A stretch of 64,000 nucleotides of DNA. Origin: Candidatus Altimarinota bacterium (GTDB lineage: Bacteria; Patescibacteriota; Gracilibacteria; BD1-5; UBA6164). The notes below the pieces were generated by a model. It worked only from the letters and a program-made list of their open reading frames with translations. It was not told where the DNA came from and ran no database searches. The stretch spans positions 1-64,000 of the forward strand of contig JAUXPL010000017.1 of the NCBI GenBank assembly GCA_030683605.1. The letters are read 5' to 3'. A program made the position numbers and the translations under genes. Shown piece after piece: positions 1 to 13,008 of the stretch; within the stretch, counting starts at the first letter, position 1, and each line of letters starts with the position of its first letter.

Positions 1-2
1 TT

Positions 3-89
3 ATTGAAACTATGAAAAAACAGAATAGAAATATTTTACTATCATTAAAACAAGCTATAAAATGAAAATTCTTTTTCTGTTTAAATTAA
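3..89 (+). CDS. C-terminal tail of an unidentified gene (partial)
   Basis: A plus-strand frame enters from the left edge and runs to TAA at 87-89, with one in-frame TGA read as glycine. The last residues are mostly basic and polar (MKKQNRNILLSLKQ, then GKFFFCLN). It is directly followed by a good terminator, which supports a real gene end. A competing frame stops at 46-48. Too little is present to name it. Confidence 0.35.
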
Positions 90-123
90 AAAAAATCATA
101 CTAAATTTTAGTATGATTTTTTT
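88..123 (+). terminator. Rho-independent terminator
   Basis: Stem AAAATCATACT / AGTATGATTTT around a short AATTTT loop, followed by a T run. It lies immediately after the stop codon of the gene entering from the left. Confidence 0.75.
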
Positions 124-163
124 CGTTACTGAGTAGTTACAAATATTTTTTGAGTTAAATCAT

Positions 164-460: not shown

Positions 461-704
461 TCCAGAATCCTTCCATCTTAAAAAAAAAGGACTGGACTAC
501 AAGTTAGACTAAAATATCTATAGTTTCAAATTGTTTTTCTCGAGAAATTTATCAAATCATTCTTTCATAATATCTAAGATTAGATTATAAGAACTTTTTC
601 ACACCTTCCATAATTAAATAAAAAGTGGAATGGTTTATTTATTTTCCATTCCACTTTTGCAGTGATAATAATTATCTAAAGTTATTTTTTAATTATCTAG
701 AATT

Positions 705-1346
705 TTAATCCAAATGATAACTAACTCTAAATCTTCCTTTTTTTTCTTTTGCAGAATCAATTATTAATAAACCGATATCTTTTAGTTGTTTTACATGAGT
801 ACCACCACAAGGTATAGAATTAAATCCTCCAATTTTTACTTTTCTCGATGAAAATGGATCTCCTTGAACTTCCACAACTAAATTTGATTCAAATTCCTCA
901 TTTATTAATGTCTGTACAATTTCTAATGATAAATCCTTAGGTACATTACCTTCAAATTCAACCCTTGCTTCACCTGGCCATTGATGCCCAGCCAAAGCAG
1001 TTAACTCTGAAAATTTATTTTCTATAACACTAGCTATCAAATGACCAGCAGTATGATACCTTGTTTGTAAATTACGATGATCTTGATTGATTTCAAAATC
1101 ATAATTATTTCCAATTTTTAATCCATCTGACTTATCAACAATATGATCAACAAAGTTTTCACTATGCATAACTTTAATAACATTAACGTTACCAATAGTA
1201 CCTATGTCTGATTTTTGCCCACCTCCTTGTGGATAAAAAAAAGTTTCACTTAAACGAATAACAATATTTTCACCTTCAATAATATCAGTAATCGTACAAT
1301 TTCCTGATAAAATAGATGAATCCATTAGATAAGATTTTTTTGTCAT
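705..1346 (-). CDS. alaX: AlaX-type alanyl-tRNA editing protein
   Basis: A 213-residue free-standing editing domain related to the AlaRS editing domain. It would hydrolyse tRNA-Ala mischarged with serine or glycine in the cytoplasm. Zinc-site motifs are visible: HTAGH at residues 98-102 and CGGTH at 180-184, with PQGGGQ near residue 40. It lies 9 nt after the 2OG oxygenase gene on the same strand, so the two form one unit. By my count all 20 glycines use GGN codons (GGA, GGT and GGG in the PQGGGQ stretch) and none uses TGA, unlike ordinary neighbouring genes. That argues for recent acquisition from a standard-code donor. Family assignment is firm; origin is inference. Confidence 0.92.
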   Translation of the reverse strand: MTKKSYLMDSSILSGNCTITDIIEGENIVIRLSETFFYPQGGGQKSDIGTIGNVNVIKVMHSENFVDHIVDKSDGLKIGNNYDFEINQDHRNLQTRYHTAGHLIASVIENKFSELTALAGHQWPGEARVEFEGNVPKDLSLEIVQTLINEEFESNLVVEVQGDPFSSRKVKIGGFNSIPCGGTHVKQLKDIGLLIIDSAKEKKGRFRVSYHLD

Positions 1347-1355
1347 AATTTTACA

Positions 1356-2132
1356 TTAACTCCAAATAATAAGAGGTTTATCATTGCCTGAAAAACCTAC
1401 AAAAGATGACCAAGCAACATGTTCTCCATCATCTACTGTTGACAAAGCATGTGTTTTATGAGATGAGAACAAAATTAATTCTCCAATCCTTGGCCTTAAT
1501 TGTATGGCAGTTTTTTTGATACTAGAATCTAAATTTATACCATAACTACCATCAATTCTATTTTTCTCATAATCTTTTTTAGATAATGATTGGTCATAAA
1601 TTATTATCTCACCTCCATATTTTGGTAGTTTTAAAAATACATTACATGCAATTTGATTTTTTAAATCATAATCACTATTATTTGTATCCCATTCCAAATG
1701 ATCTTGGTGAGCTTCAGCATATGAACCAGTAGAAAATTTTCTAACTAAACCAACAAACATTTTCTTATCGTTTATTGTAGCTAAATTTACACCATGTATC
1801 CATGCTTCATCTAAAACTAATCTTAATAAATCAATAGGAGTAATAAGTGGTGAGCAATTTTTTCTAATTTCCTTAATCCATAGAGTGGCAGACTCAAAAT
1901 AATCTGATTGCTCTTTAGGGTTATTAATAGTTTCATAAAATGCTCTACCTATTCTTTTAATCAAAGGTGCATTTTTATATCTCCCTAAAAGATTACAATT
2001 TTCTAATTTTTTAAGTAGTTCTTGACAACTATTATCTGAAAAAAAATTTATTATTCTAAGAACCTGAATTTCATCATTCATTAAAAGACTTAAATCGTAT
2101 TCATGCAGTTCATTACGTGTAACTACTTTCAT
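1356..2132 (-). CDS. 2OG-Fe(II) oxygenase family protein
   Basis: A 258-residue protein with the features of a prolyl-4-hydroxylase-like Fe(II)/2-oxoglutarate dioxygenase. HxD-type metal ligands lie in AHQDHLEWD (residues 141-149). A distal histidine lies in SSHKTHALSTV (about 224-233), followed by the usual late beta strand. The substrate is unknown. A clear Shine-Dalgarno sequence (GGAGA) sits about 7 nt before ATG, whereas most genes in this window lack one. All 13 glycines use GGN, none TGA. With alaX it forms a two-gene unit that looks imported. Confidence 0.85.
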   Translation of the reverse strand: MKVVTRNELHEYDLSLLMNDEIQVLRIINFFSDNSCQELLKKLENCNLLGRYKNAPLIKRIGRAFYETINNPKEQSDYFESATLWIKEIRKNCSPLITPIDLLRLVLDEAWIHGVNLATINDKKMFVGLVRKFSTGSYAEAHQDHLEWDTNNSDYDLKNQIACNVFLKLPKYGGEIIIYDQSLSKKDYEKNRIDGSYGINLDSSIKKTAIQLRPRIGELILFSSHKTHALSTVDDGEHVAWSSFVGFSGNDKPLIIWS

Positions 2133-2229
2133 ATTAGTTCTCCGTGTTTATTTTTGTTTGAAACATAATTAAAATTAAATTATGACTCGTAAAAATATTC
2201 GAGTAACTATACTTTATTTATTTATTTAT

Positions 2230-2774
2230 TTATTTATGTCAAGTCCTATTTTTGCAATCAATTGTATAATCACATATTCAAAAATTTTGAAATATTGCAT
2301 ATTCAAAAGGTTCTCTTACTCATGCATTTATATCAGCTTGAGCTAAATGAATATTATACTTCTTCATTTCATCTCTTAAATGCATTCTTTTACCATCTTC
2401 TAACAATTGTTCATTTAACTCTTGTTTTCTAGTTTGGATAGCAAAATAAGTTTGTCATAATGCAACTATCTCCTTTGAAGGGTCTGCATTTTGAATAATT
2501 AAATAACAAGCATAACGAGATAACTTATAATCATCTAATATTTGTCATTTTATTTCTCAATATTGATTATACGATTTTTGGGGTTCGCTCACATGAGCGA
2601 GATGCTCTTCTATTGATTGCATAGAGTTTTTACATGCTTCTTTTGCTCTATTTATAACAGGTAAAAACTTACCATATTCAGTATATTCTAGTATTTTATA
2701 TAATTCCCTAGCACTCCAATATTCATTCCATATATATTTATATGCTTTATCTCTTCGAAAATATTATTTGTCAT
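2230..2774 (-). pseudogene. dinD: dinD-like gene, frameshifted and 3'-truncated
   Basis: The translation matches the DinD (DNA-damage-inducible protein D) family: YWSARELYKILEYTEYGKF, LPVINRAKEAC, DYKLSRYACYLIIQN and GQTYFAIQTRKQEL are all recognisable. The family start (MTNNIFEEIKHIN) lies in a different frame from YWSAREL, so there is a frameshift near residue 15 (about 2728-2738). The protein stops soon after AIFQN, where the family normally continues for about 80-100 residues, and the stop falls in a TTTA microsatellite (2213-2236). TGA encodes glycine here (NQYGEI), so it decayed in, or passed through, a code-25 genome. Probably not functional. Confidence 0.8.
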
Positions 2775-4318: not shown

Positions 4319-5461
4319 TTAATTACCTTGCTTCAATATATTGCTTTCTATATACTCTTGTCTTATATTTTCCTGTTCCAGTCTTAAATTATTTTCATTT
4401 ATATATTTTAATAATTTAAATTCTTCTTTTTCTAAATATTGTTCTAGTTTTATGATTTCATCCTCTCACAATTTTTTTCATTCTCATATAAAATCACTAT
4501 ATAAGTCAAATACCTCATTATTCATAAATATACTTTTTGTCGCAGGAAAATATTTTCTACATTGAGCTAATATTTTAAATCAATGACTATCTAAATCTCA
4601 AAAGTAATATATTTCTTTTTCATTAAGCCATTTTATATATTTAAAACTTGATATATGGAATCATTTTCACCATATTATAATTGCATCATTTATTTTTGGA
4701 AAAGTTAGATAATTTATCTCATTTTCAACTATAAAAACCTTTTTAAAAATACAATTTATAGTACTAAAATCATCTATTTTAAGATAAATATCATCTATTT
4801 TTGTTCATAAAAAATTATTATTAATATTATTATCCAAAAATCTAAATCTTATAAAATACGGCTTTGTTTTTAATCAAAATATTTCTTCAAATTTATCTCA
4901 TACAAACCCAAATGTCTCATCATGTTGTTTATCTATAAAAACAAGTAATTCTTCTATAATTTTTTTATTTTGTTCTATAAATTTAGTATCTACATCTATT
5001 TCAAGCTCTCTTATATATAGATTTCTTTTAGGATTAGTCAAAAAATATTTTACTACTTTTAATATATTTTTCCATTTTCAAGTATAGTTGTTTATTATAC
5101 TATAATTTAACTTTATCCAGTTATCAAGAAATTTTATATTTTTAATTATCTCTATATTTTCACAAAATACATCAAAATCTTGTGTTTTTCATATAAACTT
5201 TAGGTAAGAAAAATTATCATCAAACTGTATACTATCTACAATAGTTCACTTAATTGTTTGTATTGTATTTAGTTTTAATCAAACATACTTTTCTGTCAGT
5301 TTTCTTAATTTAGATTGAAAATCATTTATCTTATTTTCATTTCATTTTATAGATATTTTTGGTACAACAAAAACAAGAGGCATCTTTTTTCATAAAATAT
5401 ATGCCTCTAAAAATTCTAAATAACTATTTTCTATTTTTTTGATAAGTTTTTGTGTTTGCAT
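4319..5461 (-). CDS. jetD: Wadjet protein JetD (Toprim-type nuclease subunit)
   Basis: A 380-residue protein with the DUF3322 then DUF2220 layout of JetD. The N-terminal part carries LYIRELEIDVDTKFIEQNKKI, a DUF3322 hallmark. The C-terminal part has NEINYLTFP, IIWGKGFHISSFKYIKWL and YYFGDLDSHGFKIL (about residues 285-297), where the acidic DLDSHG forms the topoisomerase VI-like metal site. In characterised Wadjet systems JetD is the nuclease that cuts plasmid DNA after the JetABC loop extruder stalls. It is the last core gene, 3 nt after the unknown 352-residue protein. The glycine of YYFGD is TGA. Confidence 0.9.
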
Positions 5462-5464
5462 TGG

Positions 5465-6523
5465 TTATATAAAATTATCATAATCTATTTCTCTATAATT
5501 TTCACTTATGATATCTTCTAGTAAAGTATTATATAGTTTTTCTTCTAAAGATTTATTATCAAAAAAACCCACCATACTTTCATTAAAATGTTGCTTAAAT
5601 TTTTCTCTTTTAATATCATTACTTTTTCATTTTAATTCATCAAATAATGATTTATGTCAAAATGAAATTATTTTAAAATGTAGATTATTTATTTCAGCTT
5701 CAGTAAAATTATTATGCACCATATAAGCAAATAATAATTTATTTATTTCTTTATAAAACTTTTCTTCTAGATTAATTTTTAATACATATTTAATAAATTC
5801 AAAACAGTTTTCAGTATCAAAATTTTTTAAAAAAGAAGTTGCAGTTTTTAGTTCTTTTTTTGTTAAGTACTTTTTTAAAACATTAACAACTCTTTTATAA
5901 TAATTAATAGTACTAATTTCTTCATAATCTCAAAATAAAATATAATTTATTATTAATTCTAAATCATACAAATTTATAGTTTTTTCTTTAAAAAAATCTA
6001 TTACATTATTAATATTATGATCATTTTGATAATAATAATAATAATTTTTTAATAAAAACCATTTAGAATCATATTTTATAAGTCTAGAGGCAATAATTCT
6101 TCATAATTCTAAGTCATTTAACGAGAAATCACTACCATCAAATTCTCATTCAATTTTTAAATCTGTATTATTTATCAAATCTTTTAAAATAACATATTCT
6201 CATCATTTTCAATGTTCAATTACTTCAAATATTGAGAGAATATTTTGATCCATAGCTTCTTTGAAGTTTTTATCAATTTTGATTATTCACAATAAACTTG
6301 GTTCATAATCAAATAGAAAATAATGTGTTATTCTCATATTTACCTCAATAATTCAATATTTATCAGTTTCTACATCTATATTTTGATTTTTTATTATTAT
6401 ATCAAATAAATTATTATCAATATTATTTATCTCTCCAATTTGTGATGATATATATTTTCATAAAGAATTAAACATATTCATCAAAGGTAAAAATTCTTTA
6501 CTTGAAAATCATATTTTTTTCAT
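5465..6523 (-). CDS. Unknown protein inserted between jetC and jetD
   Basis: A 352-residue soluble protein that I do not recognise. It begins MKKIGFSSKEFLPLMNMFNSLG and has no membrane segment, no Walker motif and no cysteine cluster. The middle contains a pentatyrosine run (NYYYYYQND) and long helix-like acidic/lysine-rich stretches. The conventional type I Wadjet order is jetA-B-C-D, so a gene here is extra. Its stop is only 3 nt from the jetD start, which implies co-translation with jetD. It could be a Wadjet accessory or regulatory subunit or an unrelated passenger; the tight spacing favours the former. Confidence 0.8.
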
Positions 6524-6666: not shown

Positions 6667-9600
6667 TTATACCCCTCAAAACATCTCCTGTTTAATACTT
6701 TCCAAGTCCATTTTTCTTTCATCATCTTTTTTTAAGTACTCTAATTCTTGTTTAGATTGTGGTTTATATTGTATTTTTTCTAATATCTTTGTTCTTGATT
6801 TTATATCTATTTTATTTTTAAAAGATTTTGCTCCGTCAATATTTGCTATAAAATAAATAGTATTTACATAATCCTCAAGTACATTTATAGTATTTGTTGG
6901 AGTTATGATAAATAATTGTAGCTCTAGTTTTTTAAATAAATCAAGCACATATCTTGAATTATCTATATCTAGTTTCGCAAAAACTTCGTCAATAACAACA
7001 AGTCTAAATGATTTTGAAAATACATTTGTTATTAGGTTTTCATTTTCTTCTTTTATACCATACTGATAAAGTAGAGCTGAAGCCAAAACAGAATAAGCTA
7101 GTTTTATGGTTTGTCATCATGATTTTCAGCTTGATGATTCATAAATATCTTTTAGAGTTTCATCACTTCTATAAAGCTCTTTTATATTAAACAAAAACCA
7201 ATTTCTAACATCTATCATATTATTTCTCCATTTTTCATTACTTTTATCAAGCATTTTTTCCATAAGTGATTTAATATCTTCAAATGCTTTTATCTTATCA
7301 GTCATATCAAGTTCTTTTTTGTAAATGACTTTTTCCCTAAAATCTTTTTTAAAATCATCTATTCAATCTCATAATTTAGAATTATTTTTTAGATTTACTT
7401 CTATAAAAGTATCTTTTGAGTAATTTATAGTTTTTAGAGTCTTATTTATAGTTTCTATTTTATTCTTTATTTTATCTGCTTCATTTTCTAAACTATTGTA
7501 AAAATCAGTTAATCTAATAAACAAAGTATCTCTAAATTCTTTTTCAAATTTTTCTTTATATTTATATAATTCTTCATCATTTATTTTATGATATTGTGAT
7601 TCTAAATATTTCCATAATTCATCAGTTGTTAAATTATTTCATAGCTCATTTTTTTCAGCAACTGACAATTTATACTCTCTATATGATGAAGCAAATCAAT
7701 GTAATCTATTTGAAATTGTCTTTAATTCTTCTATTAATTTATCCTTTTTATTTGTTATTTTCATCTGTAGTTCATCTTTTATTTGAAATATATTTTCAAG
7801 TGTTAAATCTTTTGTAAAGCTATATTTTGTAGCTTCAAACTTTTGTTTTATCTCAAAAATATTTATATTTTTTATAATTTGTTCTATATAAGTAAATCTA
7901 GTTTCAAGTTTTTTGATTTCTGATTCTAAAATTCTTATTTTTCATATTTTATCATCTCTTTTTATATTAAATTCTTGTAATATTTTTTTTAATTGTTCTA
8001 GTTTTTCTCTATATATTCTTAATTCACTATCATTTTCTTTTAATGATTTTATTTCAATTTCTTTATTTTTTATCTCATTTTTTATAGATAAATAATCAAT
8101 TTGAGTAAATGTTTTTATATCTTCTAATTTACTATAATTTTTTACAAACAAATCAAACTCTGATTTTTCTTTGTTTATTTTTGATATTTTTTCATCTAAT
8201 TCTTTTATCTTTTTATTTAATAAATTTACTTCTTTTTCTAATAAAATAATTTTATTTTTATTATCCCATCAAAGAATATAATCATTTTCTAAAAAAGATC
8301 TATCATCTTTTATATATGAATTTTTATTTTTTATAAGTCATGAAATAGTTAAAACAAGAGGAAAACTATTATAATTATTATCTCATACATTTTCTAAACA
8401 AGCATAATTAAACTGTTTTAAAATTTTATCTTTAAGCCAATTATGAAATTCTGTTTGATGCTTTATTTCTAATTTTGAATACAAATTATTTTCAAAATCA
8501 TCATATGTAGAAAGTGTAAAATCTGATTTTATTTTATTGTACTTTAGCTTTCATTTTAAATTATTTTTGTCTACATATTGATTAACTATGTGCAATAATT
8601 CTTCAGGAACTAAAAGCTCTTGTCAAAAAGAATGAAGTAGTTTTTCTATCGGCATTAACCAACTTTTTTCTTCTTCTTTTACCCTTACAAGCTCACAAAC
8701 AAATTTTAACTTTTCTTCATCTATTCATAAATTCTTTGATATTTTTTGTCTTATAATTGACAATCTTTCAGGTAATAAATTTTCTCTTTTTTTAAAATAT
8801 TCTAACTCCTTTTCTTTTATATTTTTATCGTTTTCAAGCTCTTTTTTTGTTGTTAAATAATTTATCTTTTGTTCTTCATTTTTATCATTTGCTTTTGATA
8901 ATTCTATTTTTTTATCATTTATCAAATCTATATTTTTTGTAAAATTATCAATTGTATTATCAAAATTAAATCATAAAATATTTATAAAATTTTCATAATT
9001 TTTATAGTTTGTTTCTCTTGATAATTCATCTTTTTGTAAAAGTAATATACTTTGTTCTATTTCTCTAATTCTCTTTGTTGTATCACTATTTTCTAAAAAT
9101 TTTTCCACTTGTTTTATTTCTAAATTTTGCATTGATACAGTATTTTCTATATCTTTTTTATCTATTTCTAAAATTTCTAAATAATAATTATCGTCTTTTA
9201 TTTTATTTTGTAATAATGATAATTCAATAGAAAAACTATAATTTTTTAAGTTTTGTTCTAGATAAGTTATTTCATCTTTACTTATATTTTTTTGTTCAAA
9301 TTCCTTTTTATTTTCCATAAAAGGCTCTAAGATCTTTAATTTTTCATGAGAATCAATTATTTTTTCATATATATCTTTTACTCAAATATAATTTTTTTCA
9401 CATTCTTCAAATTCACTTAAAATTAATGGATTTTCATCAAGCATATTTTCTCTAAAAAAACTATTTAAATCTTTAATTTCTTTTAGTGAAACAACTTTAT
9501 TAAATAAATCAATTGCATTTTGTCTAAGTCAAAAAATAGAACTATAATCTTCTTTATATTCAATAAATTTTGTATAAATTCTTGTATTTAATCTTGATTT

Positions 9601-10119
9601 TAAGTTTATTTTTAGCTTTGAAATAGGATTTGTTATATTTTGATTATTAAGCAAATTCAAAAAATCTTCTTTTAGATAAAGTTCTATTTCACTCACTATA
9701 AAAAATTTTTCTATACCATTTGTAGTTACTCTAAAAAAAGTAGCTAAAGTAACTTCTTTTCAAGAACCATCTCTAAAATATCAAAGTAAAACTGAAAATG
9801 TAGATTCTCATGATTTATTTCATCTCAAAAAATCAGTTTGAACTCAATCATCTGTTTCTTTGTTTTTATAAGCTCATCTTATATAAGTTAGCTCATTCCT
9901 TGTTTTTTTATTGTTTCAATCAGTTGCTGAAAGATTATATTTTCTATCTTTTCAAGGTACAAGTAAAGAAACCAAAGCATCAACTACAGTAGATTTTCAA
10001 CTTCAGTTATCTCAAGATACAACGGTTATATCTTCATTTAAATAAAAAGTTTCAATCTCAGAGTCAAAAGTTCACCAATTAAATATTTCAAACTTTTTTA
10101 GTATAAATCATTCTTTCAT
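6667..10119 (-). CDS. jetC: Wadjet protein JetC (SMC-like ATPase)
   Basis: A 1150-residue SMC/MukB-like ATPase. FNWGTFDSEI then Walker A GDNGSGKST (about residues 36-44) form the N-terminal head. A very long Lys/Glu/Asn-rich coiled coil occupies about residues 250-900. The signature SSGKSGGQTIKLAYSVLASA (about 995) and Walker B RLVVIDEVFAKLD (about 1040) form the C-terminal head, followed by the switch region LQLFIITP. In Wadjet, JetC dimers extrude DNA loops with JetA and JetB. The frame uses TGA for the key Walker A and signature glycines. The gene ends with two glycines and valine just before TAA. Confidence 0.94.
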
Positions 10120-10420: not shown

Positions 10421-10960
10421 TTATTTTTTTTGTTTTTTTACCATTTTTTTCCTATTCCTTTCTTTTTCTTGTTTTCTAGTTAATTTAGGTTTTTCAATTA
10501 AATTATATTTTTTTTTATCATCATCAATATCATCAATAAAAATAATATTATCTTGAATTATATCATCTTTTTTATACTTCATCATTTTATAATGTACTTT
10601 TAATCTTTCTATATAAAACTTATCAGTAAGAATTTTTTCCTTTAATATATCAAAAATATCATCAGTATATATTGAGTTCTTATCAGCTCATATTGAATTA
10701 CTACCTCTGAATACTGAAACTCATAATCTATCACTGATACATAATTTATTTGTATCCAATGAATAATCAAACCCTGAAACTTTATCATCTGGAGAAATTA
10801 CAACAAGAAAAACATCAAGACAATCACATTTAGTATTACTACAGTAACTTTCAAGTATAATATATCTTCACTCAATAAGAACATCTCTATTTTCTGAAAG
10901 ATAAAATATTTTAGTTTCTAATTCAGCAAAATCAGGAAATACTTCATTAAAAAATTTCAT
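10421..10960 (-). CDS. Unknown protein with CxxxxCxC motif between jetB and jetC
   Basis: A 179-residue protein. The N-terminal half carries ILESYCSNTKCDCLDVFLVVIS (about residues 37-58, a CxxxxCxC cluster), which resembles a small metal-binding or beta-strand motif. The C-terminal 40 residues are extremely basic (KPKLTRKQEKERNRKKM then a lysine tail), suggesting nucleic-acid binding. Spacing to jetB is 29 nt and to the 76-residue gene 55 nt, all on the minus strand. I do not recognise the family. Its place inside a Wadjet operon suggests a system-linked role, but that is inference. Confidence 0.7.
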
Positions 10961-10989: not shown

Positions 10990-11565
10990 TTATCCAATTT
11001 TAAACTGCCCTTTTATCAAATCTAGTACTTTTTCCATATCATCAGTACTCATTTTTGCTTTTATCATCTTATTTATCTTATACTCTTTGTCTTTTAATTC
11101 AGATAAAATTCAAAGCTCTTCTGTTTTATTTATTATAGTTTTAATCTCGTTTGTTATTTTTTTATCATCATTTTCAAACTTTTCTCTTAAATATATAGCT
11201 AAATTTTCTTTGATATATTCATGACTTATTCTATAAGCATCAGTAAATAGATCTTCAGCTTCTTTTTTATAAATATATTCTCTAAGTATAACAAGTAAAA
11301 GTGTAACTCAAAAAGAGATTTTTTGTTTTTTAGATAGACTTTCTACTTCTGAACTTTCCATCTCTTCTACATAAGCAAATCAATTATCATTATCAATTTT
11401 TAAATCATATTGTAATACTTCAAAATATGTTTGTAATTCAGAAAAATACTTATTTATATTTTTCCAATCTTTTTCATTTTCAGTAGTAATAGCTTTATTC
11501 TTCAAAATCATATTAGCTAGATATCACCATTCTGATGCATTTTTTAGATCTATTTTATCTTGCAT
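10990..11565 (-). CDS. jetB: Wadjet protein JetB (DUF4194-like)
   Basis: A 191-residue, mainly helical protein beginning MQDKIDLKNASEWGYLANMIL. Size, position directly after jetA (3-nt gap) and the segment KKQKISFGVTLLLVILREYIYKKEA fit the DUF4194 (JetB, MukE-like) subunit that bridges the JetC ATPase and the JetA kleisin. The C-terminus is a lysine-rich winged-helix-like stretch ending GQFKIG. TGA glycines occur throughout. Assignment rests on context plus weak motif similarity. Confidence 0.82.
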
Positions 11566-11568
11566 AGT

Positions 11569-13008
11569 TTATTTTTTAAATTTTATTCTAGGACTTTCTA
11601 TTTCTAGATCATTATGTATTCATTTTATTGCATAATAACTAGTATTTAATTCTGATACTTCATGACTATCATATATAGCAACTTTAAAATATGACATAAA
11701 TTCATCAATTGAATATTTTATAGGAAATGATTCTAGAACATCTTCTAGGTAAGCTTCATTTTTTTCCTTTAAAACCTCTCCAATATTATCTATTACTTGT
11801 TTTTCTGAAATACTTGTATATCTGAAAATATTTTCTACATCTATTTCTCTTTCAACTTTATCTATACTTTCATAATTGGATAACTTCATTCAAGAGCTAG
11901 GTTCCCATAAATTTTTTCACATAAATAAATCAACTTCTAGTCAAGAATTTATCTCAAAAAAATCCTTTTTAAAATCAAGTCTAGATTGATTATCAATTAC
12001 TATTTTTTTAATTTGTTTTATTAAATCCACTCATTTTTTCCTTTCTTTTAGATTTTCTTCGTTAAATATCTCTCTCAGTTTTGAAACTAGAAATGTTTTT
12101 TTATTGTAAGCTCTTTTTTTAGCTTTTAATAAATCTATATTTATCATAGATTTTATAGATTTTTGACTTTCTAGTATTTGTATTTTTTCAAACTTTTCAA
12201 ATACTTTTTCAAGTGAATCAAAAAAATCATTAGTTTTATCTCTATAAAATTTTTCGAATCAATCAAAACTTTTTCATTGAGGTGAATTATTTATTTTTTC
12301 CTCTATTTCATCAAGTATTTCTCAGAGTATTTGTCATCTATTTAAATCTGTTTCATTTGATTTTTTTTGTAAACTTCTATAAATACCTTCAAATACACTT
12401 TCAACTCTTCTAAACTCTATTGGCATCTTTTTAAGCAAATCTTTTGCTGAATTGTATTTATCATAAACTTCTTCTTCAAAAACACTTAGGTCTCAAATTT
12501 TTATTAGATTTTTCTTTTTTTCTAGGTCTTTTATCTGTTTATCTATTTCCTCTATATTTTGCTTTTTATAACTTTCTGATGAAAAAGCTATAAACTTTAA
12601 ATTATTTAGAATATTTTCAAAGTTTGATTTTACAGAAGCATGAAGTAAATCTTCATCAAGTCAAAGATTATCAACAAAATTCATCACTTGTAAACTATCT
12701 TCAGTTAATTCTATATCATAATCATCTCCAAACTCATTTACTTCAATTCTTCTTAAAAATCTTGATTTTATCCATGTTTCTATATATTTTGATGCATTTT
12801 CTTCATTTTTTTCCTCCACTAATTCAAAATTATAATCTTTGATAAAAGTTTTTAACTCTTTTTCTAGTTTTGATTGTCTAATAACATCTATTTGTTTATC
12901 TGTATTTCTAAAAACAAAATAAAAAAAAGAAAGAATAAAATCTAAATTTTCACTTCTAAATAATTTTATAACGGGTGATGAAAATTTCTCTTTTAAGATC
13001 ATTCACAT
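11569..13008 (-). CDS. jetA: Wadjet protein JetA (DUF3375, kleisin-like)
   Basis: A 479-residue protein. The N-terminus has the DUF3375 look: SSPVIKLFRSENLDFILSFF, then SKYIETWIKSRFLRRIE and YDIELTEDSLQVMNF, as in JetA proteins that begin with a winged-helix region. The C-terminal part is acidic and helical (VENIFRYTSISEKQVIDNI). JetA is the kleisin-like link of the Wadjet complex. ATG at 13008 is followed by a TGA glycine and a second ATG at 13002, so either start is possible. It is first in the jet unit, 112 nt after the SNF2 helicase gene. Confidence 0.87.

Follow-up and report, generated by a model that had tools for sequence, protein, structure and literature searches.

According to a common view, a change of the genetic code hinders gene flow. 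Transfer into Patescibacteria has been documented (PMC12455944), and for phages it has already been argued that TGA-free genes can work in hosts that use code 25 (PMC10746230). Like the code-11-compatible phages of Gracilibacteria in that work, the locus studied here consists of coding sequences without in-frame TGA in the context of a code-25 host; those are whole phage genomes, whereas here it is a chromosomal operon. If the reading preferred below is right, a standard-code operon of two genes has entered, intact, a chromosome in which UGA is glycine, and has kept donor-like glycine codons. What is new here is a chromosomal operon with native flanks, the association of such genes with Shine-Dalgarno (SD) motifs, the contrast with purC, and a recurrent gene module.

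Both proteins of the operon also have described counterparts. AlaX-M of P. horikoshii (2E1B; NF040865) shares with the AlaX protein its length, an N-terminal AlaRS-like domain and the HxxxH and CxxxH metal motifs; the protein studied here differs in falling far below the NF040865 cut-off and in being recurrently paired with a 2OG oxygenase. That oxygenase shares its whole-length fold and Fe-ligand positions with the WelO5 family (PF22814) and with SadA, but carries HxD where halogenases of the WelO5 type have HxG and is therefore of hydroxylase type. HilA and the Hil/IDO operons also combine an amino-acid hydroxylase with an exporter, and sometimes with a LysR regulator (PMC3684760); the operons in that paper are without AlaX, and the oxygenase of this locus gives no match to NF041274 (HilA L-isoleucine dioxygenase) at E<=0.001, which its relatives match weakly. 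Stand-alone editing is known against canavanine. Canavanyl-tRNA deacylase (PMC10018355) and FthB (cited in PMC11295145) follow the same logic, a free-standing deacylase guarding translation against an amino-acid analogue, and act on other tRNAs than AlaX. An FthB-like identity for the AlaX protein was considered and dropped, as FthB is described as related to ProXp-ST1 and not to AlaX (PMC11295145). No description of an AlaX-oxygenase-LysE module was found in the literature searched, which is not proof that none exists.

The operon and its surroundings

The window covers the first 64 kb of C36, one of 57 contigs in a 1.54-Mb genome (assembly 96.6% complete). Codon and SD tallies were made on a 427-kb sample, which is 28% of the genome. 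A tRNA gene with the anticodon UCA is present (C6:56723-56801, labelled SeC by ARAGORN) and presumably encodes the tRNA-Gly(UCA) behind the code change; together with the TGA positions of PheS, which as judged by eye fall largely on conserved glycines, it fits the reading of UGA as glycine. The features that matter are as follows.

1-140, plus strand: 3' end of an IS66-family transposase gene with terminator/end sequence, in code 25; the contig starts inside it, and four further sites in the genome match it at 99-100% identity
185-369 and 399-453: dispersed repeats native to the genome, with repeat matches elsewhere in it
621-658, minus strand: candidate intrinsic terminator of the operon, a 13-bp hairpin followed by a T run; perfect inverted repeat AGTGGAATGG/CCATTCCACT, unique in the window; fold z = -3.5
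705-1346, minus strand: AlaX-M-type stand-alone alanyl-tRNA editing protein, 213 aa, 20 Gly, 0 TGA
1356-2132, minus strand: WelO5-like Fe(II)/2OG oxygenase, 258 aa, 13 Gly, 0 TGA
2140-2143, minus strand: SD motif GGAG, seen in the sequence 7 nt before the oxygenase ATG
2230-2622, minus strand: native-coded remnant (6/7 Gly as TGA) with similarity to models of PDC-S13 and of type I specificity subunits; right boundary of the foreign segment
4319-13008, minus strand: type I Wadjet locus in TGA-rich native coding, with JetD (4319-5461), JetC (6667-10119), JetB (10990-11565) and JetA (11569-13008) by PADLOC JetA1-D1 matches

The oxygenase gene comes first in the operon and is followed after a 9-nt gap by the AlaX gene. 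Both stops are TAA and there is no in-frame TGA, such that every codon of the two reading frames is identical in codes 11 and 25. The hairpin at 621-658 is likely to be the intrinsic terminator of the operon. To the left, the dispersed repeats at 185-453 show that the flank belongs to this genome; positions 1-700 give 68 matches across its contigs, and a full IS66 copy lies on contig C56 (PF03050 DDE_Tnp_IS66, E=1e-35, 19 TGA codons). Such dispersed repeats are abundant, and several contigs end in them or in an IS66 copy. To the right, the TGA-coded remnant is followed by an AAA-ATPase gene and the Wadjet locus, in which two extra ORFs (5465-6523 and 10421-10960) are without PADLOC matches. 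The Wadjet locus of one congener (G001) shows no empty site, as different genes follow JetD there.

A codon count confirmed what an earlier note on this DNA had claimed for the pair, namely that its 33 glycines are all GGN, GGG and GGA included. The AlaX gene has 10 GGT, 8 GGA and 2 GGG, and the oxygenase gene 8 GGT, 3 GGA, 1 GGG and 1 GGC, which gives GGT 18, GGA 11, GGG 3, GGC 1 and TGA 0. In bulk host genes of the sample, 80.3% of glycines are written TGA (binomial p = 5e-24 for 0/33), and ordinary neighbours do indeed use mostly TGA, as in prmC, with 13/19 (13 of 18 in the earlier count).

Shine-Dalgarno motifs and other TGA-poor genes

Genes without TGA are rare in the sample. Six of the 277 with at least 8 glycines have none: those for AlaX and the oxygenase, L19, an L7/L12-looking gene, purC, and a gene for a secreted-looking protein. 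Zero TGA in L19 and the L7/L12-looking gene is expected, since highly expressed genes of this host (fusA, ribosomal proteins, pilin-like, S-layer) avoid TGA via a switch to GGT and have a codon profile of their own for the remaining amino acids as well; 16% of glycines in this class are TGA (6/54 in fusA, 0/8 in L19). At 13 or more glycines, only four genes have no TGA. The earlier note had named many low-expression genes without TGA as an observation that would speak against transfer; besides the pair, only purC and the secreted-looking protein were found.

SD motifs give a second line of evidence. They precede, in SD-like form, only 12 of the 325 sampled genes, in agreement with the earlier remark that the oxygenase has a good one although the motif is rare in the window. 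A GGAG also stands 13 nt upstream of the AlaX gene, but carries little weight because it falls within codons for a conserved Trp-Ser of the oxygenase. When genes with 8 or more glycines are compared, SD motifs precede 6/9 of those that are poor in TGA but outside the highly expressed class, versus 4/268 others (p=3e-8); without AlaX the association still holds (5/8; p=5e-7), and none of 11 highly expressed genes has one. This supports the SD association as a sign of foreign origin that is independent of the TGA count. Missing TGA and SD motifs may thus allow foreign genes in code-25 lineages to be recognised by two independent features.

The gene purC (SAICAR synthetase, C2:46181-47143) has 22 glycines and no TGA, a conserved SD motif and atypical codons, and is itself likely to have been acquired; its identity with gammaproteobacterial homologues does not exceed 38%. 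It is also TGA-free in two congeners and adjoins the same DEAD-box helicase gene in three species of the genus, between which its identity is 84% and 72%. Between species, 7-12 of 20-21 shared glycine codons changed within GGN and none changed to TGA, whereas the switch rate of the neighbouring helicase predicts 3-7 TGA changes. A TGA-free state can therefore outlast a recent arrival, and purC raises the question of whether recoding proceeds by neutral drift or meets resistance. For the same reason, the use of the TGA count as a clock was dropped.

Two other genes were noticed in the sample. A PEP-CTERM-motif protein (C6:24139-24687; GC 37%, TGA in 1/18 glycines, a good SD motif), encoded near rplJ/rplL-looking genes, is probably another recent acquisition. 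The secreted-looking protein (C11:4831-5439; 202 aa, 19 Gly, 0 TGA) is encoded immediately downstream of a ThrRS-like gene, which likewise uses few TGA codons (18/47). When plasmids were searched with the TGA-free or TGA-poor genes other than the pair, one gene gave a single weak match and another none; for the C11 protein, the only plasmid match was a weak one, to a Roseomonas PEP-CTERM protein.

Origin and age of the operon

We consider it well supported, with a probability of roughly 0.85, that the pair is an operon from an AT-rich, standard-code donor, set between IS66/dispersed repeats and the Wadjet island of a code-25 Gracilibacteria-type genome. On this reading, the source was a standard-code bacterium whose codon usage is AT-rich, and the operon, acquired as one unit, was inserted between an IS66 copy with dispersed repeats and the Wadjet defence island. 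Because it has TAA stops and lacks in-frame TGA, it would read the same in both codes and could have worked on arrival. Since then it would have gained no UGA-glycine codons.

The distribution of homologues points in the same direction. The oxygenase was found in none of 59 relatives, four congeners included, and in none of 379 genomes across the phylum, this genome aside. No AlaX orthologue was found in the 59 relatives, which gave three weak partial matches (28-29% identity, with 8-12 TGA each). Closest homologues in code-25 genomes at the same locus, which the earlier note had said would contradict transfer, were thus not seen among these relatives. All homologues found are in standard-code bacteria, with best identities of 40% (oxygenase) and 46-48% (AlaX); nothing closer than 40-48% to indicate the donor was present among them. 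Identities are 40% for the oxygenase and 47-48% for AlaX in Sorangium, and 33% and 44% on a Caballeronia plasmid; further values are 40% in a gammaproteobacterial genome, 39% in Alcaligenes and 41% on an Acinetobacter plasmid. A closer AT-rich donor was sought in the order of the RIFCSP gammaproteobacterium, and no nearer match was obtained. Every homologue found agrees with the expectation that the nearest relatives would be standard-code bacteria. Trees place the pair near Sorangium, Caballeronia and the genome G737 without firm support.

The age of the transfer is less clear. A competing account, and a rather improbable one, is that transfer took place long ago, that TGA was held off by selection or slow recoding, and that the other codons drifted to the host pattern. 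The non-glycine codons of the pair fit the host bulk (z -0.6, -0.7) and are no overall outlier (G=52.9; 15% of random bulk gene pairs score higher), and its GGN proportions equal those of the host; the donor was thus probably AT-rich, or the codons have drifted. This host-like usage allows an older entry, and purC, with its SD motif and atypical codons, is a precedent for a gene that stays TGA-free across three congeners. On the other hand, the pair is absent from all four congeners and prefers ATT to ATA and GTT to GTA, unlike the host, deviating at ATA/Ile (15/45 vs 60%, p=4e-4), GTA/Val and AGG+CGN/Arg. Each of its 11 GGA codons is one mutation from TGA, and none has changed. Absence from the congeners and the untouched GGA codons favour a recent entry. 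The earlier proposal of a recent transfer from a standard-code donor thus holds as to transfer, on the basis of standard-code homologues, absence in relatives, the SD association, the rejection of high expression and native flanks; that it was recent is unproven, as purC stayed TGA-free in three species with conserved synteny.

Arrival on a code-11-compatible phage or plasmid, and not directly from a cell, appears still less probable. Spacers of Gracilibacteria have been reported to target TGA-free phages (PMC10746230), and plasmids of Acinetobacter, Caballeronia, Undibacterium and Photobacterium carry the pair. However, a search of phage and viral collections gave no match for the oxygenase, AlaX matches in phage records reach at most 29% identity, and no phage or plasmid genes were recognised beside the pair here. 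A chimeric contig end, with the first 2.2 kb coming from another organism, is very improbable: although the pair sits right at the beginning of contig C36 and has a GC content of 28-29% vs 23%, positions 1-140, 185-369 and 399-453 are repeats of this genome, including the code-25 IS66 sequence, so that a double chimera would be needed, and contamination is likewise unlikely because both flanks are native. Least probable of all is that the pair avoids TGA through high expression, since host genes that do so are GGT-dominated and have a profile that the pair rejects at its non-glycine codons (z -5.3, -4.2), 0/33 is improbable even at their TGA rate (p about 0.003), and they lack SD motifs, all of which upholds the earlier judgement that the pair is unlikely to belong to this class even though fusA and rplS avoid TGA.

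The two proteins and their recurrent module

The AlaX protein matches PF07973 tRNA_SAD (27.6 bits vs a cut-off of 24) and P. horikoshii AlaX-M (2e1b, E=4e-21). Its HxxxH (98-102) and CxxxH (180-184) motifs are intact, and H98, H102, C180 and H184 are invariant in relatives. With NF040865 it scores 104 bits, below the cut-off of 300, so that it is AlaX-like and not a curated equivalog. The oxygenase matches PF22814 (45.1 bits vs a cut-off of 27), and its predicted model (mean pLDDT 88) superimposes on WelO5 (Z=27, rmsd 2.5, 251 residues aligned) and on SadA (3W20), an N-substituted amino-acid dioxygenase (Z 19.5). The Fe ligands H142, D144 and H228 are intact, the first two in the sequence H142-Q-D144. 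In this superfamily, an Arg anchors 2OG. This residue, ten positions after the distal His, is His238 here, while it is Arg in all 19 homologues compared and at the aligned position of WelO5; in addition, Tyr is found at position 166 in all homologues compared, and the window oxygenase alone has Phe (Y166F). Activity may therefore be lost or altered by R238H, and the oxygenase may be impaired.

The two genes recur together and are carried on plasmids and genomic islands in other bacteria. As in the window, where they are adjacent on one strand, they are neighbours in ten other loci, with Alcaligenes (three species) counted once: on plasmids of Caballeronia, Undibacterium, Acinetobacter and Photobacterium, and in Sorangium, Alcaligenes, a Verrucomicrobia MAG and three gammaproteobacterial genomes. 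These loci thus include Proteobacteria, Myxococcota and Verrucomicrobia. An RhtC/LysE-type exporter, of the threonine/homoserine kind, is next to or near them in Acinetobacter, Alcaligenes, Photobacterium, Sorangium and the genome G704. No LysE-family exporter (PF01810) was found in the present genome, whose assembly is nearly complete. No AlaX gene lies in the flanks examined for the oxygenase homologues of cyanobacteria, Mesorhizobium, Streptomyces and Iodobacter.

Gene neighbourhood and fold suggest, with about even odds, that the module handles a toxic or misactivated amino acid, and the oxygenase-AlaX(-LysE) set offers a testable function. The oxygenase would hydroxylate a free or lightly modified amino acid, AlaX would clear tRNA(Ala), or a related tRNA, of a wrongly attached amino acid, and an RhtC/LysE-type pump, present in many donors, would export the amino acid. 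The steps have precedents in the hydroxylase operons with exporters (PMC3684760) and in the stand-alone editing against canavanine (PMC10018355). Here, AlaX activity may be what is kept, because the pump is absent and the oxygenase is without the 2OG-binding Arg. It is rather unlikely that the oxygenase of complete modules instead makes a toxic hydroxy-amino acid as a weapon, which the pump secretes and to which AlaX confers immunity, so that the module would not serve to disarm a toxin from outside. Hil/IDO operons of Pantoea and Bacillus, which pair amino-acid hydroxylases with exporters, have been proposed to make antimicrobials (PMC3684760), and the full three-gene set is listed as cargo of a 6.4-kb plasmid. 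But one Acinetobacter plasmid carries LysR, AlaX and LysE without the oxygenase, which points to resistance, and the present genome lacks the pump and has an oxygenase that seems impaired.

Returning to a role in handling a toxic amino acid, a wider proposal can be made only tentatively, and we regard it as doubtful in its entirety. SD relics and missing TGA would mark foreign genes in this code-25 genus, some acquired genes would have stayed unrecoded for genus-level time as recoding to UGA is selected against, and the oxygenase-AlaX-exporter cassette would be an undescribed mobile anti-toxic-amino-acid module that crosses the code boundary.

In Photobacterium sp. GJ3, the module is present on both pGJ3-2 and pGJ3-1 with broken oxygenase frames, and on pGJ3-2 the AlaX frame is broken too, suggesting duplication and decay, or an assembly error.
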